Origin: a virus
Strand: one strand, 5' to 3'
IMG/VR virus record: IMGVR_UViG_3300022707_001227
Coordinates: 1-30,408 of that record
DNA length: 30,408 nt
Of this stretch, positions 3,683-25,752 are shown one piece after another. Both the position numbers and the translations under genes were made by a program. Position 1 is the stretch's first letter. Each line of letters starts with the position of its first letter. Under the pieces are notes generated by a model. That model ran no database searches. It was given only the letters and a program-made list of their open reading frames with translations, and was not told where the DNA came from.

Positions 3683-4024
3683 CTAACAGCTACAGAGTCC
3701 GTAATCTTCAATCGGACGTCTCGGATCAATGGTCAGTAGGTCAAGAATGGCGATATAAGTTTCAGTACCGGTTTCGGCTTTGATTTCTACCAGGCTGCCT
3801 CCGGACTCTGGGAACGCGATTTGTGCATTGGCAACGTTTGCGGCAAGAGCCTGGCCGGTTATGGTGACCTGTCCGGACTTCACGGTCCAGGTAACGGTTA
3901 CCAAGTCAGTGTTTTCTTCAGCCCATTGCGAAAAATCAAACTGATAAGTTTTGATGGACCCGAGTTGAGCCTGGTCACGAAAATCCTGCGGATTGTTTTC
4001 TGATGTTATAAAATAATCAGGCAT
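3683..4024 (-). CDS. First gene of the late operon; beta-rich structural-type protein (113 aa)
   Basis: The protein is beta-rich, with alternating strands such as LVTVTWTVKSGQVTITGQALA and GGSLVEIKAETGTETYIAIL, and a DPRRP turn near the C-terminus. This resembles Ig-like or small fibre-associated phage proteins, but I cannot name the family. A strong AAGGAG site precedes the ATG. It is the first open frame after the late promoter and terminator, so it would be the first late product once the terminator is passed. A virion or tail-accessory role is inferred from fold and operon only. Confidence 0.6.
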   Translation of the reverse strand: MPDYFITSENNPQDFRDQAQLGSIKTYQFDFSQWAEENTDLVTVTWTVKSGQVTITGQALAANVANAQIAFPESGGSLVEIKAETGTETYIAILDLLTIDPRRPIEDYGLCSC

Positions 4025-4160
4025 TCAATCTCCTTTTCCGCATGGGTCACCTTGAAACGCGGTGGAGATAAGCCAGCTCGAAAGCCGTGCCCATCTCAAC
4101 ACCGGTAATACCGCCACGTGGAGTTGACGGGAAATCGTTGAATTATAAGGGTTTTGGGAA
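4025..4160 (-). promoter_or_regulatory. Leader between the early late-operon terminator and the first late gene
   Basis: About 136 bases separate the intrinsic terminator from the first late gene. I see no convincing gene here; a 64-codon frame crosses the terminator hairpin and the promoter start region and lacks a ribosome site. The segment contains GC-rich stretches (CACGTGGCGGTATTACCGG on the minus strand) that could fold, but no second T-tract. The ribosome site for the next gene is at its downstream end. Confidence 0.4.
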
Positions 4161-4186
4161 TAAAAAAACCGCCTCTGCTGGGCGGT
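4161..4186 (-). terminator. Intrinsic terminator just downstream of the late promoter (tR'-like)
   Basis: Read on the minus strand this is ACCGCC, a 7-base loop, GGCGGT, then a run of seven T. It has a perfect 6-bp GC-rich stem and a textbook U-tract. It lies only about 20 bases after the expected transcription start of the promoter at 4209-4239. It would give an RNA of about 40 nt unless antiterminated. Confidence 0.85.
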
Positions 4187-4208
4187 AGATACAATTAGTA
4201 GTGTGGTA

Positions 4209-4239
4209 ATTTTAGGCATGTGTGGTGCTGTTTTGTCAA
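4209..4239 (-). promoter_or_regulatory. Candidate late promoter (pR'-like)
   Basis: The minus strand shows a perfect -35 TTGACA (4239-4234) and -10 TAAAAT (4214-4209). The spacer is 19 bp, or 18 bp if CTAAAA preceded by TGC is used as an extended -10. The spacer is longer than optimal. The site lies between the candidate Q gene and the late operon and points into the late genes. Confidence 0.65.
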
Positions 4240-4242
4240 GAA

Positions 4243-4713
4243 TTATTTTTCATCGTCTATGAATATATAGGTCTTTGTTGTGTTAAACGGTTCTTTTATA
4301 AAGGTTTTTGGCTGTGAACTTTTTTTCACTGACACGGCAGGATTTAGCACATAATACCATTCGTTCAGTGCTTCTTTCAATATTTTGGAGATTGAGCGCC
4401 TGGTTTTCCGGTAATGCCGTCCACATGCTCGTATGGATTTGTTATCGAAGCAGACTGCTTCTGCGATGTTGTGCTGTTCAGTTGTGACACGTTTTTCCCA
4501 TTTGCGTAGGGCTTTTAGGATTTCGACTGCGGCTTCTGAATATCCTACATCGCCAGTCGACGAGATATGATGCTCGTAGCTTGCACCGCTTGGATATCCC
4601 AGTCCTCCGCGCTGTATGTTCATTGCCGCACCGACTTGACAATGCGCTGACCAGAGCCGTACACCGAGTGATTTTTCCAGCCTGGTCGCATCCGTAACCC
4701 TGGTTCGCGGCAC
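4243..4713 (-). CDS. Candidate late-gene antiterminator or activator (Q-like position), about 156 aa
   Basis: The C-terminal half is helical and basic. It contains EAVEILKALRKWEKRVTTEQHNIAE and then SIRACGRHYRKTRRSISKILKEALNEWYYVL, which looks like a helix-turn-helix of the sigma-region-4 type found in phage Q-like regulators. It is the last gene of the leftward early operon and directly precedes the late promoter and terminator pair, the exact place of lambda and P22 Q. I infer that it lets polymerase read through the terminator at 4161-4186. The start is uncertain: the GTG at 4713 has only a weak ribosome site. The frame stays open upstream without a good start, and the first internal ATG is at residue 31. 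Similarity to a known Q family is not proven. Confidence 0.5.
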   Translation of the reverse strand: MPRTRVTDATRLEKSLGVRLWSAHCQVGAAMNIQRGGLGYPSGASYEHHISSTGDVGYSEAAVEILKALRKWEKRVTTEQHNIAEAVCFDNKSIRACGRHYRKTRRSISKILKEALNEWYYVLNPAVSVKKSSQPKTFIKEPFNTTKTYIFIDDEK

Positions 4714-4748
4714 CTGTTTGAATTTATCCGTGTAAATCCACTGAAGCG

Positions 4749-4931
4749 TTAATTTTTCACCGTCTCTGATGGTTTTTCTCCCGATTGTGTTAAATTCCCC
4801 CCGATCGTATCCAATTGGTCCCGTAACAGCTTATTCTCCGCCCTGAGCGCCCGTGCTTCGCCTTCAGCGTCTCTGAGTCGCTTGGTTATAACCTTCATTC
4901 TGGATTTGAAATGGTCGTGTGTGGTGCTCAT
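4749..4931 (-). CDS. Short coiled-coil protein (60 aa)
   Basis: Residues about 10-42 form an uninterrupted charged heptad pattern (KVITKRLRDAEGEARALRAENKLLRDQL), so a coiled-coil dimer is likely. The tail is Ser- and Thr-rich and probably disordered. The ATG overlaps the preceding gene as ATGA. Its function is unknown. Small coiled-coil proteins in early phage operons often act by binding a host protein, but no target can be read from the sequence. Confidence 0.65.
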   Translation of the reverse strand: MSTTHDHFKSRMKVITKRLRDAEGEARALRAENKLLRDQLDTIGGNLTQSGEKPSETVKN

Positions 4932-12544: not shown

Positions 12545-12748
12545 TTATGCAGCGCCGAATATATCTGGCCGCAACTGATGTCTAGTTATTCCGGTTTGCT
12601 CTTCAATCTTTACAACCCATTCTGCTGGCACCTTCTTTTTAAGCCAATATGATACCAATTGTTGTGAAGTGCCGATGGCTTCAGCAAGGGCAACTTGTCC
12701 CCCTGCTTTATGGATTGCCTGTTCGAATGGTGTCTTTTCTTTGCTCAT
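12545..12748 (-). CDS. Cro/YdaS-like helix-turn-helix repressor (67 aa)
   Basis: Residues about 8-52 read FEQAIHKAGGQVALAEAIGTSQQLVSYWLKKKVPAEWVVKIEEQTGI. This is the five-helix DNA-binding fold of the P22 Cro/YdaS group, with the helix-turn-helix at LAEAIGTSQQLVSYWL. The length is typical. It is the first gene of the leftward early operon and faces the operators at 12791-12839, its likely targets. No ribosome site precedes the ATG, and the predicted -10 box places the transcript start at or next to the ATG, so a leaderless mRNA is probable. As it heads the replication operon it corresponds in position to cro, not cI. Confidence 0.85.
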   Translation of the reverse strand: MSKEKTPFEQAIHKAGGQVALAEAIGTSQQLVSYWLKKKVPAEWVVKIEEQTGITRHQLRPDIFGAA

Positions 12749-13092: not shown

Positions 13093-13472
13093 AAACCAAA
13101 AAATACACCATAAAAGTCGATGGTCTGGAAATCAGGGATATCTGTTTACCGGCAACGTCAATACATAAATTGAATGAAATCCGCAGAGAAGAGGCCGAAA
13201 AACTTGGCATATCTGCGGAGGGTATCAAGATATTACCAAAAGTCCCAACCAAGCTGGGAACGCAAGAGGGTGTGGTTTTAAAGGCCATGCAACGGCGCAA
13301 GGCACTATTGATCGATACTAACAATTATGTGATTTTGAAACAAATAACAGGGATTGTGCATAATTCCACAATGGCGGACCTGTTGACTGATTTGGAAATC
13401 AAGGGCTATGTTGAGCGAAAGGGTCCCGGGATGGATAATATATTTATTACAGATAAGGGGATGGCGGCATGA
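13089..13472 (+). CDS. Protein with C-terminal winged-helix-like domain (127 aa)
   Basis: The N-terminal 60 residues are mixed alpha and beta and not recognised. Residues about 60-125 (EGVVLKAMQRRKALLIDTNNYVILKQITGIVHNSTMADLLTDLEIKGYVERKGPG) look like a winged helix with the common LEIKGYVERK end. This suggests DNA binding and a role as an early regulator. Overlaps of 4 bases (ATGA) join it to both neighbours. No family name can be given. Confidence 0.6.
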   Translation: MKTKKYTIKVDGLEIRDICLPATSIHKLNEIRREEAEKLGISAEGIKILPKVPTKLGTQEGVVLKAMQRRKALLIDTNNYVILKQITGIVHNSTMADLLTDLEIKGYVERKGPGMDNIFITDKGMAA

Positions 13473-13708
13473 GTGATAAAGAAATGACTAAAGAAGATGC
13501 GGTCAAGAAGTCCATAGAAGAGGACAGCCGGTATATTGGTCAAACTGTTTGGGCTACAATGTGGAATCATGAAAGATTTCAGGAGGGCGTTCTTGAAAGC
13601 GTAAGGGATTTATGTGTTCCCTATGGGGTCAGAATTAAAGAAACTGGTCGTTTGGGATATTTTGTGCGTTGCTATCTTGAACCGCCAGAGTCACGAGTGG
13701 AATCATGA
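13469..13708 (+). CDS. Hypothetical early protein (79 aa)
   Basis: No family is recognised. The first 20 residues are charged and helical. The rest is beta-rich (YIGQTVWATMWNHERFQEGVLESVRDLCVPYGVRIKETGRLGYFVRCYLEPP) and resembles a small SH3-like barrel by alternation of hydrophobic residues. It is joined to its neighbours by ATGA overlaps. Confidence 0.6.
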   Translation: MSDKEMTKEDAVKKSIEEDSRYIGQTVWATMWNHERFQEGVLESVRDLCVPYGVRIKETGRLGYFVRCYLEPPESRVES

Positions 13709-13911
13709 CCGAAACAGCGATCGATACACTGGCGGCGCAATGCCTTATTATGACGCAGATGATAAACGTTGCCAACGATAACGGAATAGAACAAGGGCTG
13801 CATGCTCTGGCCAGTTCCCCTGTCGAGGGGATGGTTTCTCATCCCAATGAGAACTCAAAAGTACCGCAGGGAGTGTTTCGGCGCTTCCTGCGGCGTTTGT
13901 GGGGTGTGTGA
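13705..13911 (+). CDS. Hypothetical early protein (68 aa)
   Basis: No family is recognised. The N-terminal half is helical (TAIDTLAAQCLIMTQMINVANDNGIEQGLHAL) and the C-terminus is basic and aromatic (QGVFRRFLRRLWGV), possibly an amphipathic membrane-contact helix. ATGA overlaps the preceding gene and TGATG the next. Confidence 0.55.
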   Translation: MTETAIDTLAAQCLIMTQMINVANDNGIEQGLHALASSPVEGMVSHPNENSKVPQGVFRRFLRRLWGV

Positions 13912-14270
13912 TGGATAGAAAATATGAAGATGACTTTGCTAAATTCTCAGACCATAAAATTCAAACTGCGATATCAAACATGGTTAATCGTGAACTGGGG
14001 CTTGATCCTGTAACCATGATTACTACAGCAAATATGCCAACAGAGACACTTACGGAAGAAAAACTGAAAGTAGCTATACAAAAGGTTCAGGATATAATGG
14101 ATATGGCTGATCCAAAATGGACAGTACATTGGTTAGCTTCTCTTGGTTTTACGGTGATGATAAATCCATTTTTCTCTGCTAGTGAAAAGCCAGTCGTAAT
14201 CTTGCCTAGCAAATACAGCGAGGCAATAGGCGAACTAAATAAAGAAAGGATAAAACAATGTCAGGAATAA
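13911..14270 (+). CDS. Hypothetical early protein (119 aa)
   Basis: No family is recognised. The ATG at 13911 overlaps the upstream stop as TGATG and is preferred over a GTG four codons upstream. The protein is helical with a central hydrophobic segment WTVHWLASLGFTVMINPFF that is probably buried core, not a membrane span, because charged helices flank it. It overlaps the nuclease gene by 13 bases. Confidence 0.6.
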   Translation: MDRKYEDDFAKFSDHKIQTAISNMVNRELGLDPVTMITTANMPTETLTEEKLKVAIQKVQDIMDMADPKWTVHWLASLGFTVMINPFFSASEKPVVILPSKYSEAIGELNKERIKQCQE

Positions 14271-16473: not shown

Positions 16474-16779
16474 ATGATTAAAACCTTATTCGCTACCGCC
16501 ATCATAGCCATTACAGCCAATCAACAGGCTATGGCGAAGGAAGTTCCATTCAACGGATTCCCTATAATTCTGCGGCCGGGAGAAATCACAGTGATACCTT
16601 TGCCGGAAGAAATAATAATGGAGATACGCGCTGGGGAAGAATTGATTTTTTCATGCACAAAGTCGCAGGCCAAATCAGCTTTGGAAATGGCAGAACTCTG
16701 TGAACCGGGAATAATTGAGTGCCCGTTTATCGCCTTGGCAGAGTATTGTTACATGAATGGGGAATTGTACGATGATTAA
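16474..16779 (+). CDS. Exported early protein with four Cys (101 aa)
   Basis: The N-terminus MIKTLFATAIIAITANQQAMA is a Sec signal peptide with an AMA cleavage site. The mature part of about 80 residues has four Cys (SCTK, LCEP, ECPF, EYCY), so disulfides in the periplasm are likely. It is acidic. GGAGGAAAAA precedes the ATG. An exported protein in the early operon is typical of superinfection exclusion or envelope modification, but no known exclusion protein is recognised. Confidence 0.7.
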   Translation: MIKTLFATAIIAITANQQAMAKEVPFNGFPIILRPGEITVIPLPEEIIMEIRAGEELIFSCTKSQAKSALEMAELCEPGIIECPFIALAEYCYMNGELYDD

Positions 16780-18718: not shown

Positions 18719-19177
18719 CTACCGCCAGGCGATCCAGCCGCCTAATCGAACCGCTCTGTAAGCAGCTCTACGCCGGATTTTCTTTACCCCGGCTTCTCGC
18801 ATGATACGTGCGAAAATTCTATCAGCATTTTTACGTGTCCACTTCATGTTGAGATTAACCCATTTATTGTCAACAAGCATCTGATATGACCCTGCTGGCA
18901 GGTCACCCTCGTAGACGTATATCCAGTCATGTATCAACGCGGCGGCTCTTATGAGACCGTCAGGACGGATCCCGGTCAAAGTCCATACAAAGCGCGGAAC
19001 ACTCGCGCCATCGTATTTGAAACCGGCCTTGATGAAAATACGGTATGTTTTGTCGTGCTTTTTCCACTGATAAGAGTAATCTTCAGCGAGTTCATATGCC
19101 CTCCAGCGCTTCAGGCCATAGTCTTTACCATCAATCGGTACGTTATGCGGCTGTCGGAGTTTCTTAATTTCGGTCAT
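18719..19177 (-). CDS. DUF1353 family protein (152 aa)
   Basis: The signature GFKYDGASVPRFVWTLTG...ALIHDWIYVYEGD (residues about 52-93) is that of DUF1353, a small phage family of unknown function usually found next to lysis genes. The C-terminus is basic, ending in a hydrophobic GGWIAWR helix. It is the last gene of the late operon and overlaps the lipoprotein gene by 4 bases. A His-Asp pair (HDW) suggests metal binding but the activity is not known. Confidence 0.85.
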   Translation of the reverse strand: MTEIKKLRQPHNVPIDGKDYGLKRWRAYELAEDYSYQWKKHDKTYRIFIKAGFKYDGASVPRFVWTLTGIRPDGLIRAAALIHDWIYVYEGDLPAGSYQMLVDNKWVNLNMKWTRKNADRIFARIMREAGVKKIRRRAAYRAVRLGGWIAWR

Positions 19178-19443
19178 GGCACTCCTGTGTGGACTGAATC
19201 ATGGTGACAGAACTTGTGATATTGTTTGTATTTAGTGGGATTATCACCGAACTGTCTTTCGAGCGAACCGATCGTCGGGTATTTACACAGCTTTTCGATA
19301 CTGTCATCGAGCATCTTGTCGGCAGCCTTTGACAGTGCGACTTCTTTAAATGCCAGTACCGCGCCAAATTTCGCACCGGATTCGCAGCCGGCTAGAACCA
19401 GGCAAACAACCAGGCTAAGAATGATTTTTTTTCTGGTACCCAT
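19174..19443 (-). CDS. Lipoprotein, possible lysis (spanin-type) factor (89 aa)
   Basis: MGTRKKIILSLVVCLVLAGC is a lipoprotein signal with lipobox LAGC, so the mature chain begins at C20. E follows, which does not give the Asp+2 inner-membrane signal, so outer-membrane sorting is likely. The mature part has helices and a CKYPTIGSLERQFGDNPTKYKQYHKFC loop with two Cys. It starts 52 bases inside the end of the endolysin gene after AAGGAG. Position with holin and endolysin suggests an o-spanin, but no inner-membrane partner is evident. Confidence 0.7.
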   Translation of the reverse strand: MGTRKKIILSLVVCLVLAGCESGAKFGAVLAFKEVALSKAADKMLDDSIEKLCKYPTIGSLERQFGDNPTKYKQYHKFCHHDSVHTGVP

Positions 19444-19892
19444 TTTTTCTTTTTCTCCTTCTCGATATCTGGTATGCGGCCGGGCCTGTAGAACACGTGA
19501 TCTCTGATGGTCTTCCGAGGCTTTTCGCCCTTTATCCAGTACGGTTTGATGCTTTTGGTGTGATAATGCGTTGAGCCCTTGGTGTTGTCTTTCAGATCAC
19601 CATGAACAGCCAGTTCAGCGATTTCTAATGCTCTGGCGAATATCTTATTTTCTGGCGTCAGTGCATACATTTTTTTGAGGTTTGGGTCGTTTTCATTCCA
19701 GCAGGAAAACTGCTTATTTTTTAAACATATTTTTTCTACTGTGTTGCCCCACCAGTAGTATTTATATTCCTTGGATACCTCCAGCCGGTTCATCACTACA
19801 GACGCGACGGCCTCCATGCCTTTCAGTCCTTGATTCCTTGCTTCGCCCCACAACGTACGAGCCATGACATCGATATCGCGCTCTATGGTCAT
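19392..19892 (-). CDS. Endolysin, SleB/Hydrolase_2-type cell wall hydrolase (166 aa)
   Basis: The family pattern MARTLWGEARNQGLKGMEAVASVVMNRL (residues 10-37, catalytic Glu at E17) and FSCWNENDPN, then NTKGSTHYH...PYWIKG, mark the SleB hydrolase domain. Members cleave peptidoglycan glycan strands. Instead of a signal peptide, it has a short basic and aromatic end (KKKKWVPEKKSFLAWLFAWF) that may hold the enzyme at a membrane. The holin candidate is directly upstream (ATGA overlap). Confidence 0.9.
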   Translation of the reverse strand: MTIERDIDVMARTLWGEARNQGLKGMEAVASVVMNRLEVSKEYKYYWWGNTVEKICLKNKQFSCWNENDPNLKKMYALTPENKIFARALEIAELAVHGDLKDNTKGSTHYHTKSIKPYWIKGEKPRKTIRDHVFYRPGRIPDIEKEKKKKWVPEKKSFLAWLFAWF

Positions 19893-20149
19893 TTTTTCAG
19901 ATCCATGCGTATTTTGATAATGACATGAACAAGCGTCGCTATGACCAGTATCGGACCGACAATGGATCCTATGAGCTGGAACATGTTTGCGGTTTCTGTC
20001 AGTAATCCGCGGACTGAGAAGACTGTTACACCGCTTCCGAGCCCTACCCTAACCATAGTGCTTTCTGCACCATACGCGACGCAAGCGATGCAGGCGCCAA
20101 CAAGCACACCCAGGAAATATAAGATTGTCTGTTTGAGTATTTTAAACAT
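19889..20149 (-). CDS. Holin candidate (86 aa, two membrane segments)
   Basis: The protein has a basic start, one span at about 8-28 (ILYFLGVLVGACIACVAYG) and a second at about 57-80 (FQLIGSIVGPILVIATLVHVIIKIRM), with a Gly- and Ser-rich loop and a KK end. This is the class II holin pattern. The stop overlaps the endolysin start, which supports the call. The first span could be a signal peptide, in which case it would be a pinholin-like or pilin-like protein. Confidence 0.65.
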   Translation of the reverse strand: MFKILKQTILYFLGVLVGACIACVAYGAESTMVRVGLGSGVTVFSVRGLLTETANMFQLIGSIVGPILVIATLVHVIIKIRMDLKK

Positions 20150-20158
20150 AAATCACCT

Positions 20159-20533
20159 TTACGGTTTTGCGGCACGTAATGTTTTCTTTGCGTTATATTT
20201 ATCCAGTGTTGCAGCATCTATTCTTGTGCGTGTTGCTTCATCGAGAGCATCTATGATATTTTCGTGATCATCAGATAAACCAATAAAATCCATATCTGTT
20301 TGCCAATCATCCAAAGGTTTTGCGGCAAGCCATGCAGCTTCTTCTATATTTCTTGCTGATATTTCCGACCCTGTTAAAGATTTGATACCATATTTTGCTT
20401 TTTCAGTTAATTGCCCGGCAGTAAGTTCAGCATCCGGTTTATTTAAAGACACCGGCATAGCTATGGTTCTAGTCTGGGCATGTGCCGAAAAACTTATAGA
20501 AACTATAAATATCAGGATAGCTAAAATTCTCAT
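20159..20533 (-). CDS. Exported protein after the large fibre (124 aa)
   Basis: MRILAILIFIVSISFSAHA followed by Gln is a clear Sec signal peptide (AHA cleavage site). The mature part is helical and mixed-charge (AELTAGQLTEKAKYGIKSLTGSEI, RNIEEAAWLAAKPLDDW, LDEATRTRIDAATLDKYNAKK). No family is recognised. The ATG overlaps the fibre stop as ATGA, so both are made together. It may be a helper of the exported fibre in the periplasm, or a virion part. Confidence 0.65.
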   Translation of the reverse strand: MRILAILIFIVSISFSAHAQTRTIAMPVSLNKPDAELTAGQLTEKAKYGIKSLTGSEISARNIEEAAWLAAKPLDDWQTDMDFIGLSDDHENIIDALDEATRTRIDAATLDKYNAKKTLRAAKP

Positions 20534-23367
20534 TTTCTCACTCCATAAAGTTTAAATTCACCAGATGTAATATTCCCGCTTGAAAACAGAAATCTGATTG
20601 CATCTACATCAGCCGCAGAATCACGATATCCTCCGCCATCTGCTATCGCCGCACGTGGATCAGGATCAGTATAGACTGTATCAAATTCAATCCAGGTATG
20701 TGTGGTTGCGGCTGGATTATACAGCTTGATAACAGAATTGACAGACTCTCCTGCGGCATTGCCGACATTATTAGATATTTCAAAAGTGGTTGCTCCTGCA
20801 AAAGAGCGTGTTAATGTAGTGCCATCTGAAAATATATTGTCGTATAAGGAAATGTAATCTGATGCACCTGAGTCAAAACTTGACCCGCCGTCTGTCGATG
20901 TTCTCATAAATAATTTTACTGCATCAGTCGCAGGCACCGCATTGATTATATGTAGTTCGTATTCATCAAAAGTGCTGTCAATGTCGCTTGTGAAATCAAT
21001 ACTGGTACTAGCGCTTGCTGTCGCTGTTGCTAAAAGTTTTAAGCCATTCGTTGCAGCTGTTTCTATGCCATCCAATTTTGTTTCATCTGCTGTCAAAAAG
21101 CTCGCAGTTGTATTTTGCAAGACTGTCGTAAAGGCCTGTACGTCCGTGCCAATAACAAGGCCCAAATTTGTCCGTGCACCGCCGGCCGTGCTTGATCCGG
21201 TACCGCCATCAGTAACGGTGACATCCGTTCCGCCTATGGTATAAGGCAAGGCACCGCCGAACGTTACCGTAGAAGACAGATCAAACGTCGGAGTATTGTT
21301 GGCTGTCAAAGTGCCAAACACCGTATAGGCAGCCCCGTCAACGTCATACGCCTCCAAAAGCATAGTGTCAGACAGACCCTGGTTGGTAGCAATACTTACT
21401 GCCCTTACGCGTCCGTCTACATCCCATTCAAATTGTTGAAGGGAAGATATCTGCACTAAATCTTCGATAGGTGGTGTGCTAAGACCATCTTGTGTTCTTG
21501 TGATCCGTATAAGGAATTCACTGCCAGTGCCAACTGCCCAGCTGGATATATCAGTTATTAGCCAAATTATAGTCCCGTTTTGACGCATGCCGTTCGTACC
21601 GTCTACAGGCGTAAATGTAGAAAATGTCCCGACACCTGTGGAAAATTCAAAGGTGGGGACAATACCGGCACCCGTAGATACAGTATCGAGAGTAAAAGTT
21701 ATTTTAGTAAATTTAACGGCATTCCCTATGGTAATTGTATCATTGTCAGCCACGAACATCACAATATCTGATCCCGTGCTGGTAAATTCCGTTAGTCTAT
21801 CAACAGCGAGGACAAGGGCGCTGTCCATATCTCCCTCAGCTCCGATCAATTTAAGTACGGGACCTACTTCCGCATCCGCCGCAAGACCATACACATTCGA
21901 AGACCCTACTCCCGTGGTACCCACTGCAATACCTGCAACAGATCCCCCGGTAGCAGCGCTTTCGTCAATAGCTATGCTTATCGCAATGTTGTCGTCCCCT
22001 GGTCCTATAGCTCCCGTCGTATAATCTATATCGATAGCATCATAATCTCCGAAGCCGGCAGCTGATGTCACTAAATTGATAGCCATATCGCCTGTAGCAA
22101 GTGCTGTATGGGTGAGTTCCATATCTCCCGTAACATCGAACGTCGTAGTGGGTGTGCCGCCCCCTATTGCAAGTTGCGAACCATCAAAAGTAAGGTCTGC
22201 ATCCCCCACGAGGACGCCACCTATATTATGCGTAACTTGAGTGGTTAGCCCTACTGTCGTTATCTTTTCACTATCCAGTTCATCAATAGCTGCTTGTACG
22301 TTCGTTGCGGCTATATCACCGGCGGGTGTGTTATCCACTTGAACAGCATCATAATCGGAAGCCGCCGCCACAACTGCATCTGTGCGACCAAAAACAGAGT
22401 CCACCGCATCACCATCAGGAGTAACCCACGTATTATCACCTCTCCAGAATGTAGTAGCATTTGCACCTGTGCCACTATTTAGATTGGTTACGGGCAGATT
22501 CCCAGTAACATCCGCAGCCAGATCAATAGCATTTCTAGTAATAATCTGCCCGGAAATCGTGATGTAGTCAGGAGTACCAGCCAATGTCACGTCAGTGCTG
22601 TTATCTGTTCCTGCCTGGTCAACGTCTAAATTAGTACGGGCCGCCGCCGCCGTCGATGCTCCAGTACCACCATCGGCGACAGGCAAATCACCAATGACAT
22701 CGGTTGTAAGATCTACAGACCCAAGCGTTAATTCCTGACCGGAAATTGTAATATAGTCCAGCCCAGCCGCAATGATCACATCTATACTGTTGTCTGTTCC
22801 GGCCGCATCGACACCTAACGAAGTGCGCAACGTCGCATCACTCTCGAATGAATACGTTCCTGCACCTGTTCCGATCATCACTTCGTTGTCAGCGACAATA
22901 GCCAAGGCTGCGATATCCTCGAGGTTCGTGTCAAAAGCCTGTATATCTGTACCGATTGTTAAGCCCAAAGACGTCCGGACCGTGGCGCCGCTTTCGTTTG
23001 CATATGTACCGACACCGGTACCGACAATAAACTGATTGTCCGCTATCACTGCCAGGGCTGCCAGATCATCCAATACTTCATCAAACGCCTGGACATCGGA
23101 GCCTATAGCTAACCCCAGATTTGTTCTGGCACCACTCGCAGTGCTGGAGCCCGTGCCCCCGTTCAGAATGGGTAAATTCCCTATAATATCAGTTGTCAGG
23201 TCTATAGCGTTGCGCGTGATGACCTGGCCTGCAATGGTTATATAATCCAAAACACCGGCCAGTGTAACTTCTGCACCTCCAGAAGTAGCCCGTAGACGTG
23301 CATTAGCAGACGTTACAATCGATAATGCCAGGAATATCGTTACAAATAGGAATAGAAGCTTTTTCAT
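20530..23367 (-). CDS. Large repeat-containing tail fibre with a Sec signal peptide (945 aa)
   Basis: MKKLLFLFVTIFLALSIVTSANA is a textbook signal peptide. The N-terminal half holds at least three modules of LDYITI(A/S)GQ...AIDL...GNLP and GGTGSSTA..ARTNLGLAIG(S/T)DVQAFD, with GTGxGTYxxES linkers. One further copy of the GGTGSSTAGGARTNLG block lies near residue 735. These are phage tail-repeat-like units as found in trimeric fibres. The C-terminal region ends in a beta-sandwich with ...GEFKLYGVRK, a fibre-tip pattern. GGAGAATAAAC precedes the ATG. A fibre with a signal peptide is unusual, as it would cross the inner membrane. The tail call is from repeats and position; the export is from the signal alone. 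Confidence 0.75.
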   Translation of the reverse strand: MKKLLFLFVTIFLALSIVTSANARLRATSGGAEVTLAGVLDYITIAGQVITRNAIDLTTDIIGNLPILNGGTGSSTASGARTNLGLAIGSDVQAFDEVLDDLAALAVIADNQFIVGTGVGTYANESGATVRTSLGLTIGTDIQAFDTNLEDIAALAIVADNEVMIGTGAGTYSFESDATLRTSLGVDAAGTDNSIDVIIAAGLDYITISGQELTLGSVDLTTDVIGDLPVADGGTGASTAAAARTNLDVDQAGTDNSTDVTLAGTPDYITISGQIITRNAIDLAADVTGNLPVTNLNSGTGANATTFWRGDNTWVTPDGDAVDSVFGRTDAVVAAASDYDAVQVDNTPAGDIAATNVQAAIDELDSEKITTVGLTTQVTHNIGGVLVGDADLTFDGSQLAIGGGTPTTTFDVTGDMELTHTALATGDMAINLVTSAAGFGDYDAIDIDYTTGAIGPGDDNIAISIAIDESAATGGSVAGIAVGTTGVGSSNVYGLAADAEVGPVLKLIGAEGDMDSALVLAVDRLTEFTSTGSDIVMFVADNDTITIGNAVKFTKITFTLDTVSTGAGIVPTFEFSTGVGTFSTFTPVDGTNGMRQNGTIIWLITDISSWAVGTGSEFLIRITRTQDGLSTPPIEDLVQISSLQQFEWDVDGRVRAVSIATNQGLSDTMLLEAYDVDGAAYTVFGTLTANNTPTFDLSSTVTFGGALPYTIGGTDVTVTDGGTGSSTAGGARTNLGLVIGTDVQAFTTVLQNTTASFLTADETKLDGIETAATNGLKLLATATASASTSIDFTSDIDSTFDEYELHIINAVPATDAVKLFMRTSTDGGSSFDSGASDYISLYDNIFSDGTTLTRSFAGATTFEISNNVGNAAGESVNSVIKLYNPAATTHTWIEFDTVYTDPDPRAAIADGGGYRDSAADVDAIRFLFSSGNITSGEFKLYGVRK

Positions 23368-23369
23368 GT

Positions 23370-23720
23370 TTATTCTCCAGGGCCTTGTGAGATGTAAATC
23401 GTGCCGGCAACGCCAGCGCCGCAGATGACGGCCAGGTGTGTATTGACAGCATCATGGCTGAAAACCTGTATCGAGCCTCCGAGAACAGGTAAATCAGTTA
23501 CGGCTGCAGTGATTGTAAAGATTCCCGCTTTCAGAAAGCATGTCCCGTCAGAGTCATTGGTTATCATGAGGTTACGCCCTCCCGCATTCGGCAGCGCGAC
23601 ATTTGCGGTTACATCGGCTGCAACAATCAACACCGTAGGAGAGTTTACATGTATTGCATTCTGTGCAAAAGCCGGCGCTGTAATCAGTATGGCAAAAAGT
23701 GTTAATAGTAAAATACGCAT
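23370..23720 (-). CDS. Small exported beta-rich protein (116 aa)
   Basis: The ATG at 23720 is preceded by AGGAGAATTACA and opens directly on the signal peptide MRILLLTLFAILITAPAFA with an AFA cleavage site; an in-frame ATG 17 codons upstream lacks these traits. The mature part is beta-rich and Val- and Ala-rich (HVNSPTVLIVAADVTANVALPNAGGRNLMI) with two Cys, like a small tail or fibre-tip domain. It lies upstream of the large exported fibre and is probably in the same group. Confidence 0.7.
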   Translation of the reverse strand: MRILLLTLFAILITAPAFAQNAIHVNSPTVLIVAADVTANVALPNAGGRNLMITNDSDGTCFLKAGIFTITAAVTDLPVLGGSIQVFSHDAVNTHLAVICGAGVAGTIYISQGPGE

Positions 23721-23733
23721 TGTAATTCTCCTG

Positions 23734-24012
23734 TTATGTATCGAAAAACGGAATAACTTTCTCATCTCCATCGACTAAAATCTTGATGTAACCTGACGGG
23801 GGGTTCATATCAACGGTACTTGACGTGGACCATCCCGGGTCCACGGTCGGTGTGTCTGTCACTTGAAATATAGTGGGAATACCACTTTGACCGCCAATAC
23901 TGTACCAAATTTGATATACAGACCTCAAAAGTTGAGTGAAAAATTTCCTGGCACTTGTGTCTGACAGAATGGTTTTAGGTATTTGTTGAGGCGGCGGATT
24001 TAATGGGATCAT
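23734..24012 (-). CDS. Small tail-module protein (92 aa)
   Basis: No family is named with confidence. The Pro-rich start (MIPLNPPPQQIPKTILSD) and central FFTQLLRSVYQIWYSIGG resemble small podovirus proteins found beside fibres. The C-terminal half is a beta-rich segment ending KILVDGDEKVIPFFDT. It is coupled to the upstream gene by ATGA. Confidence 0.6.
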   Translation of the reverse strand: MIPLNPPPQQIPKTILSDTSARKFFTQLLRSVYQIWYSIGGQSGIPTIFQVTDTPTVDPGWSTSSTVDMNPPSGYIKILVDGDEKVIPFFDT

Positions 24013-24314
24013 TTCTTCTTTATTTTCTTTCTATTGGATACCCAGTCTTTCGTTTTTTGTGATAGCGGTGTCGAATTTTCTATGAAAGCGATGATCTCTT
24101 CCAGTTTTTCTGCGATAACTGCCGTACTTTCCGTTTCCATCAATAAATCTTTGACTGTCGGAAGCGTTTCAGGAGGGGGTTCGGGATTTTTAAAACTCCC
24201 GTCTGACTGTTTTATTTGACCGCAAACAACATCGTCAGGAGCCTCTTTAAAACCTTTTCCTGGATATGGCTGTTTTTGAATGACAACGTTCTTTGCATTA
24301 AGTTTGATATACAT
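24009..24314 (-). CDS. Small tail-module protein (101 aa)
   Basis: No family is recognised. A beta-rich start (YIKLNAKNVVIQKQPYPGKGFKEAPDDVVCGQIK) leads to a Pro-rich linker, a helix (MESTAVIAEKLEEIIAFIE-like) and a very basic end (VSNRKKIKKK). It has the look of a fibre-associated or fibre-assembly factor. It lies between the tail fibre and the exported proteins. Confidence 0.6.
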   Translation of the reverse strand: MYIKLNAKNVVIQKQPYPGKGFKEAPDDVVCGQIKQSDGSFKNPEPPPETLPTVKDLLMETESTAVIAEKLEEIIAFIENSTPLSQKTKDWVSNRKKIKKK

Positions 24315-24315
24315 A

Positions 24316-25752
24316 TCAGCCTACCTTCCATATTTTCGCATCACTATAGAGCTGCGTAACGCCAAAAGTATTCTCAACACCGAATCCTTTTGTGGCTAAT
24401 GTAGTTTGAACTCTGTGCTGCACCTCAAATGTTTTCGTTGAAGCAATAGTGAATCTTCCTTCTATAATTGATCTCGAAGTAGTGCGTATATTCCCTGGAT
24501 TAGCGGTGCCTATATTATTCTCTGCACGTTCACTGGTACCTAAAAGTGTATCTGAACCATCTGTTATATTACGAAGTCTTGTTTGATGACTATCTACACC
24601 GGCGGCGGGGCTATGTGCTTGTATATAATAAGTTCCTGCAGGCAGTGTTATCTGATTACTTGATAATGATGCACCGGTAATTTCATTTGTTAAAACCGTA
24701 TTCAAATCTCTTGTTTGAAAAGATCCTGATGTAGCTGTCCCGCCGCTTGTGCCTGCTGATTTCTGATCTTGAATATGTAGCAATTGGCCTTCAAAACCGC
24801 TTACGACCGATGCTCCACTAGCCCTCGTATATTTTGTTGCTCGCCATTTTCCTGTCTCAAATTCTATCAGTTCGATTTCATCTCCGACCTCTGCTTCAAT
24901 ATCTCCTCCGCCAGCATTTAAAATCAGATCGGCACTATCAGTTAATGTTGGAGTAGAATCAAAATGAAACTTGATAACAGTTCCGACACCCACTGTGTCG
25001 ATAGTATCGATCGTATTTGCCGCTGTGATATCAAAATAATTCCCGTCAGTTCCTAAAGTCAGAGCACTAGCACTGACGATATCAGCACCTTTTGACCAGG
25101 TCTGCGTCTTCGTGAAAGTGTTTTTCTGATTAATCTCAGCGGTGTTATTGTTGATAATCGACCAGGTTGTCGTGCCAGCAATGACCATCGCGCCCGTACC
25201 AGGCTGCAGGGTCACTGTGTTAGACGTGGTGTTCCCGGTGTTAAACAATTCTGCAGCATCTGCCGCAAGCGTCACGACATCAGTGCCGACATTCAGCACC
25301 GTGTATATGAACGCATCAGCGACGCCGGCAATCGGAGGATGCGTGAGCGTTGTCGAACCACTGACGTTTATATGAGAATTGCCATGCACCGCTTGCGTTA
25401 AAACCGTGTTCGAATTGATAAAAACCGTGGTCTGTCCGAACGTGAGTCCCAGAGAATTGTTATCGAGTATCCATATCGCTCCAGTATTTGTATCAGCAGA
25501 CGCCTGGTCAGGAAACAACGCTAGTTTATAGGCTTCGTCGAAGTGCGGGATAATTATGGTCCCGTTCAGTTCAGGATAGCCGTCTGCGTTCAAAACAGTG
25601 TCTGCAGCGGTAAACGTGCCGAGTGTGTCATTAGCGACCAGGATCGGATTGACGGTACCTGCTTCGAAACCTTTAAGAACAGCGCCAGAGAACGGGTCTC
25701 CGTTCAAATCGACATATTGTACTGCTGTTTTTGCAATGGGTTGAAATGACAT
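24316..25752 (-). CDS. Tail fibre/spike with virion-binding N-terminus (478 aa)
   Basis: Residues about 10-115 (VQYVDLNGDPFSGAVLKGFEAGT...DTVLNADGYPELNGTIIIPHFDEAYKLALFPDQ...GAIWILDN) are the head- or tail-binding domain seen at the start of many podovirus spikes. The middle is beta-rich with Thr- and Asn-rich repeats. The last 140 residues (TAGTYYIQAHSP-type strand, FEVQHRVQTT, LYSDAKIWKVG) look like a TNF/C1q-like jelly roll, which often binds receptors. It follows the gp16-like gene, the place of the P22 tailspike. Confidence 0.85.
   Translation of the reverse strand: MSFQPIAKTAVQYVDLNGDPFSGAVLKGFEAGTVNPILVANDTLGTFTAADTVLNADGYPELNGTIIIPHFDEAYKLALFPDQASADTNTGAIWILDNNSLGLTFGQTTVFINSNTVLTQAVHGNSHINVSGSTTLTHPPIAGVADAFIYTVLNVGTDVVTLAADAAELFNTGNTTSNTVTLQPGTGAMVIAGTTTWSIINNNTAEINQKNTFTKTQTWSKGADIVSASALTLGTDGNYFDITAANTIDTIDTVGVGTVIKFHFDSTPTLTDSADLILNAGGGDIEAEVGDEIELIEFETGKWRATKYTRASGASVVSGFEGQLLHIQDQKSAGTSGGTATSGSFQTRDLNTVLTNEITGASLSSNQITLPAGTYYIQAHSPAAGVDSHQTRLRNITDGSDTLLGTSERAENNIGTANPGNIRTTSRSIIEGRFTIASTKTFEVQHRVQTTLATKGFGVENTFGVTQLYSDAKIWKVG

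Follow-up and report, generated by a model that had tools for sequence, protein, structure and literature searches.

Predicted exported tail fibres in a P22-like phage and in a scattered minority of other tailed phages

The tail fibres of a phage determine the host that it infects, and the accepted teaching is that they are assembled in the cytoplasm. Fibres can also bind finished particles outside cells, as when tailspikes are added to P22 heads or fibres are added to T4, and we know of no export route for phage tail fibres. Lambda lom is an outer-membrane protein with a signal peptide (PMC12309495), and the phage proteins of diversity-generating retroelements are reported to lack signal peptides (PMC6199706). 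A full-text search of open papers returned no description of exported tail fibres. The first-pass annotation had proposed that three genes of a P22-like phage form an exported fibre module without a described counterpart, a proposal that is supported and extended here by the clustering of signal peptides in many unrelated phages and by a cysteine signature.

Three signal-bearing genes between the tail fibre and the lysis genes

The window, by which we mean the whole stretch of DNA analysed, is part of an IMG/VR virus record, a 30.4-kb fragment from a P22-like phage. Its genes run from a terminase through DNA-ejection proteins, a protein whose C-terminus is S74-like and an ordinary tail fibre to the trio of interest, and then to the lysis genes, which encode a holin-like protein, an endolysin of the SleB type and a lipoprotein resembling Rz1. 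Since the terminase, ejection and lysis genes all lie in the window, bacterial contamination was rejected as the source; a search of IMG/VR for relatives of the ejection protein found none. The three genes, all on the minus strand, encode a 116-aa small protein (P0002, 23370..23720), a 945-aa fibre (P0001, 20530..23367) and, after the fibre gene, a 124-aa small protein (P0003, 20159..20533). The open reading frames described in the first-pass annotation, their linkage by a 2-base gap and an ATGA overlap, and their flanks were all confirmed in the sequence. Each gene has a Shine-Dalgarno sequence just 5' of its start (AGGAG, GGAG and GGAG). Wrong gene starts were rejected because the start codons and ribosome sites fit, as was the alternative start at 23771 for the first gene, since the ribosome site belongs to the start at 23720.

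Upstream of the trio lie the gene at 23734, a small signal-less protein recognized by position and size (24009..24314, minus strand) and the ordinary signal-less tail fibre (24316..25752, minus strand; phrog_24210 tail fibre, 1.8e-43), which has a putative virion-anchor-type N-terminal domain and whose N-terminus is homologous to a signal-less fibre of another phage, G299. The small protein, for which a family search gave zero matches, is encoded next after the ordinary fibre and is by position the cytoplasmic counterpart of P0003. The next gene downstream encodes a holin-like small membrane protein with hydrophobic segments (19889..20149, minus strand), followed on the same strand by a SleB-type cell wall hydrolase endolysin (19392..19892; PF07486, 2e-20; phrog_938 endolysin, 8.6e-21) and a candidate spanin, an Rz1-like lipoprotein with the lipobox LVLAG/C and a weak PHROG spanin match of 0.05 (19174..19443). 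The trio accordingly sits within the late tail-to-lysis operon, as is usual for phage tail fibres, and promoter-like sites show no excess in the window (17, versus 17.8 in shuffled sequence). A small Cro/repressor-like helix-turn-helix protein encoded elsewhere in the window (12545-12748, minus strand; phrog_35, 1.4e-16) hints at a temperate life style.

Cleavable Sec signal peptides, as claimed for all three genes, were recovered by a rule of our own (not SignalP) that scores the charge of the n-region, a hydrophobic 9-mer and an A-x-A type site; each N-terminus has the positive n-region, hydrophobic core and A-x-A site characteristic of Sec export and signal peptidase I. The signal of P0002 reads MRILLLTLFAILITAPAFA/QNAI (23664..23720, minus strand; score 7.82), with a predicted cut after AFA at residue 19, that of P0001 reads MKKLLFLFVTIFLALSIVTSANA/RLRA (23299..23367, minus strand; score 7.29), with a predicted cut after SANA at residue 23, and that of P0003 reads MRILAILIFIVSISFSAHA/QTRT (20477..20533, minus strand; score 8.52), with a predicted cut after AHA at residue 19. 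A score of at least 7 was reached by just 4/565 genes (0.7%) of control phage loci, and shuffled N-termini attained the observed scores of P0002, P0001 and P0003 only 3, 15 and 0 times in 5000, respectively. In the early region of the window, a 101-aa gene without a family match (16474-16779, plus strand) likewise has a clear signal peptide, MIKTLFATAIIAITANQQAMA/KEVP.

The label of tail fibre is supported for the 945-aa protein and not supported for the two small ones. P0001 is homologous to four tail-fibre PHROGs (phrog_24210, 11393, 5481 and 1591, with matches down to 1.6e-22) and contains the repeats GGTGASTAxxARTNL and TFWRGDNTW, although with its score of 7.29 it departs from the cytoplasmic, signal-less character of phage tail fibres. 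Its fibre domain at residues 416-648 (21424..22122, minus strand) recurs in other phages, in some behind a signal peptide and in others without one: it is 54% identical to the signal-bearing fibre of L002, an IMG/VR locus, and has signal-less homologues in L101 and L103. In addition, the C-terminal domain (residues 772-943; 20539..21054, minus strand; phrog_14820, E=9e-22) is homologous to signal-less tail-region proteins of the cultured pelagiphages HTVC010P, HTVC034P and HTVC019P. P0001 contains zero cysteines, no anchor domain is evident after its signal peptide, and structure prediction of residues 406-660 was of low confidence (mean pLDDT 34). Its identification as a trimeric autotransporter adhesin of the YadA type was rejected because the C-terminal membrane anchor domain PF03895 is missing; the sole match to that anchor is sub-threshold (E=0.23) and falls at residues 109-130, not at the C-terminus.

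Within the trio, cysteines occur in P0002 only, which has two in its mature part, and P0003 has none. P0002 has a homologue in L002 with a signal peptide and two cysteines, encoded directly before the predicted exported fibre of that locus; a direct IMG/VR search with P0002 gave no matches, and its predicted structure was of low confidence (mean pLDDT 41). P0003 is probably a fibre-accessory or chaperone-like protein, judging from homology to small proteins encoded just after the fibre in L008 and L009. Its C-terminal 34 residues are 68% identical to the small protein of L008. Its conserved tail TLDKYNAKKTLR (20162..20263, minus strand) is common to signal-less fibre-accessory proteins, and P0003 ends in TLDKYNAKKTLR..P much as do the signal-less small proteins of both loci. 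P0003 had no match among curated families, and a search in named phages found nothing. Because signal-less relatives of the mature part exist for both P0001 and P0003, the signal is an addition.

Signal-bearing fibres in other phages

A search with the fibre repeat yielded 80 IMG/VR loci carrying a related fibre, of which 79 were usable; the fibre has a signal peptide in 6/79 and lacks one in 73/79. Neighbours, counted as genes within five positions on the same strand, were signal-bearing in 16/44 cases where the fibre itself has a signal (six loci) and in 14/407 cases where it has none (73 loci; Fisher P=2e-10). Genes for predicted exported fibres are a class found in a scattered minority of phages and not a one-off. 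The complete trio of the window was found in no other phage, and the known relatives of P0003 all lack a signal peptide; the pair formed by the genes at 23370 and 20530 does recur, in L002. The longest run was in phage G299 (54,145 bp, with a 96-bp terminal repeat), which has eight consecutive signal genes and one signal-less fibre. In G304, each of the five fibre-like genes is signal-bearing, and a signal-less fibre could not be identified among its poorly annotated genes. Since the window phage, G299 and G300 all keep a signal-less fibre or tailspike, the predicted exported fibres may not be needed for attachment. Domains among class members include concanavalin-like lectin, beta-helix, BNR, collar and S74 chaperone, and a lipoprotein version of the fibre occurs in L057 (contig G307).

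The searches also brought up several genes of separate interest. Secreted proteins with the TFWRGDNTW-type fibre repeat occur without obvious phage context in six contigs (L116, L122, L126, L129, L135 and L150) assigned to Bacteroidetes, Kapaibacteria, Parcubacteria and Hyphomicrobiales. Two IMG/VR loci (L042, 7519-8292, and L081, 9043-9819) encode related signal-bearing proteins of 257-258 aa whose sequences resemble that of an outer-membrane protein; the phage may use such a gene to change the cell surface or to block reinfection. In L007, a signal-bearing 333-aa protein with six cysteines (3836-4837) lies near an apparent capsid gene, outside the tail module. A gene of the G300 contig (L177, about 13199-13957) seems to correspond to the N-terminal half of a transketolase and may be an auxiliary metabolic gene.

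The position of the signals relative to fibre domains can be seen in a family of 28 loci sharing one homologous N-terminal domain, whose members, with and without a signal, both directly follow a gpJ-type tip protein and whose signal-less members match phrog_523, tail collar fibre. Similarly, the mature N-terminus of the signal-bearing fibre of L107 matches the phrog_8763 tail protein (2.8e-45) and is homologous to the N-terminal domain of a podophage fibre that has no signal (1.8e-7). On these comparisons, signals have been grafted onto fibres whose N-termini are otherwise ordinary, also in prophages, where such fibres directly follow gpJ. Prophage examples of signal-bearing fibres are L114, L173 and L174, and a prophage of Nitrobacter sp. 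Nb-311A is a named example of the class. In Bradyrhizobium phage ppBdUSDA122-1, the annotated tail fibre WAX24263.1 has a signal peptide, and so does a second protein after gpJ. The strain carrying this prophage, Bradyrhizobium diazoefficiens USDA 122, releases siphophages seen by electron microscopy (PMC10127595); a text search of the same paper found mention of neither signal peptides nor proteomics. An annotated acyltransferase gene on the opposite strand adjoins the signal-bearing fibre of this phage (L197, 11592-12716, minus strand), and its product could modify the receptor of the lysogen.

Cysteines of the predicted exported proteins

If the signals work, the mature proteins would fold in an oxidising space, and the class bears the cysteine signature of such a compartment, although in the window itself P0002 alone has cysteines. 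Two comparisons that do not depend on how signal peptides were called support export in this way. In a set of 50 predicted exported proteins, compiled by hand from gene maps by their signals and not by their cysteines, cysteine content was 13.0/1000 aa, versus 2.8/1000 in a non-redundant set of 62 fibres that have the fibre repeat and no signal (P=2.6e-10, a value that is optimistic because several proteins share a contig). Among the 45/50 exported proteins with any cysteine, 37 have an even and 8 an odd count (binomial P=8e-6, optimistic for the same reason), and the corresponding numbers for the signal-less fibres are 17 even and 25 odd. The exception to this parity is the L057/G307 contig, with counts of 3, 5, 4, 3 and 7 in addition to its lipoprotein-type fibre; the host of this phage may handle disulphides differently, and the odd counts together with the lipoprotein suggest surface anchoring there.

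The association also holds in a stricter comparison, within a single domain. In the 28-locus family, a cysteine pair is present in 11/12 members with a signal and in 0/16 without one (P=5.6e-7, again optimistic because many of the sequences are related, with few independent gains, at least two or three by eye). The signal-bearing version reads ...ALASCSWGSSAPANG...YQCWADT and the signal-less version ...ALASTSSGSVAPTT..YQFWADT, without the pair; in some members the second cysteine is shifted by two positions (QFWCDT) and the pairing is kept.

A proposed model of periplasmic fibre assembly and its alternatives

Export of the class proteins is highly probable. We propose, with moderate confidence, that the three genes form a tail-fibre module for export and are expressed late, at the same time as the tail and lysis genes. 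Their products would be carried across the inner membrane by Sec, lose their N-terminus to signal peptidase and fold in the periplasm, with disulphide bonds in most class members. Virions would be assembled in the cytoplasm without these fibres, and when lysis opens the inner membrane they would meet the periplasmic fibres, which would dock at or after lysis. Among the roles suggested in the first-pass annotation, post-lysis attachment to virions fits best because the signals precede N-terminal domains of the ordinary fibre type, in the place where fibres are usually encoded, and blocking of reinfection and binding of neighbouring cells become rival roles; attachment itself, as judged from domain and position, seems slightly more likely than not. 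For the window phage, we infer export and cleavage, docking on virions and the time of docking from sequence, and since P0001 lacks cysteine and an obvious anchor, the case there depends on the signals, their clustering and the class.

Hydrophobic segments occur in some virion proteins, and the N-termini could in principle be parts of the virion that serve in membrane insertion or trimer formation and not in export. This is very improbable, given that proteins unrelated to one another and of widely differing sizes have classical n-, h- and c-regions and A-x-A cut sites, that cysteine enrichment, even parity and pairing accompany such N-termini, and that the sequences of these N-termini diverge while the signal type stays. 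The main alternative, which accepts export, as the clustering and cysteine data support, is that the fibres are non-virion binding proteins, free, surface-bound or periplasmic. They would cover receptors, to prevent reinfection or the loss of progeny to cell debris, or would make cells adhere to each other. The receptor-covering role resembles that of the phage T5 lipoprotein Llp, which blocks T5's own receptor, and the lectin and beta-helix domains of some members, the lipoprotein in L057 and the separate signal-less fibre or tailspike kept by several of these phages all speak for this alternative. Nevertheless, we regard this reading as rather unlikely, since P0001 has no detectable outer-membrane anchor or autotransporter domain. 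Moreover, in many phages the signal is followed at once by an N-terminal domain of canonical fibre type, encoded at the canonical fibre locus, an arrangement that a free adhesin would not need.

The proteins in bacterial contigs lacking obvious phage context, which have a signal and the same repeats, count against a virion fibre and for binding proteins. They also count for a further alternative, namely that these are adhesins of lysogenic conversion, expressed from the prophage to alter the lysogen surface in the manner of lambda lom. Several examples are indeed prophages (L114, L173 and L174), and signal-bearing lom has the genes for the tail spike and the tail fibre on either side (PMC12309495). 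However, the window genes are tightly packed in a tail-to-lysis operon with promoter-like sites not above shuffled sequence, and ordinary collar fibres occupy the same locus in other phages, making this explanation improbable.

If periplasmic assembly followed by docking is correct, routing of fibres through the periplasm would add a step to the morphogenesis of tailed phages. It would account for how fibres gain disulphides, which could harden them outside the cell, and it would provide a common fibre pool for all particles from one lysed cell. We assign an even chance to a broader statement, that in a class of tailed phages the adhesive fibres are exported, acquire disulphide bonds in the periplasm and join the particle no earlier than lysis, which would keep fibre and genome uncoupled up to release. 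The matter bears on host range and on annotation, in which these genes may be labelled as secreted proteins of the host, and the model is testable in the Bradyrhizobium strain that sheds such a phage spontaneously.

Compared with known systems, the class shares its repeats and its N- and C-terminal domains with the side tail and collar fibres of lambda-like and P22-like phages (PHROG 523, 8763 and 24210), as well as their position after the tip or ejection proteins and before the lysis genes, but those fibres have no signal peptide and few cysteines and assemble in the cytoplasm. Lambda Lom resembles the class in its signal peptide and in being encoded between the tail tip and tail fibre genes, whereas Lom is a beta-barrel and the class consists of fibre proteins in which no barrel was detected. 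The pIII and pVIII proteins of filamentous phages are virion components synthesized with a cleavable Sec signal peptide, as is proposed for the class, although filamentous phages assemble at the membrane and the class belongs to tailed double-stranded DNA phages with cytoplasmic capsids. Finally, WAX24263.1 of ppBdUSDA122-1 is a signal-bearing fibre like that of the window, in a siphophage, whereas the window phage is P22-like.
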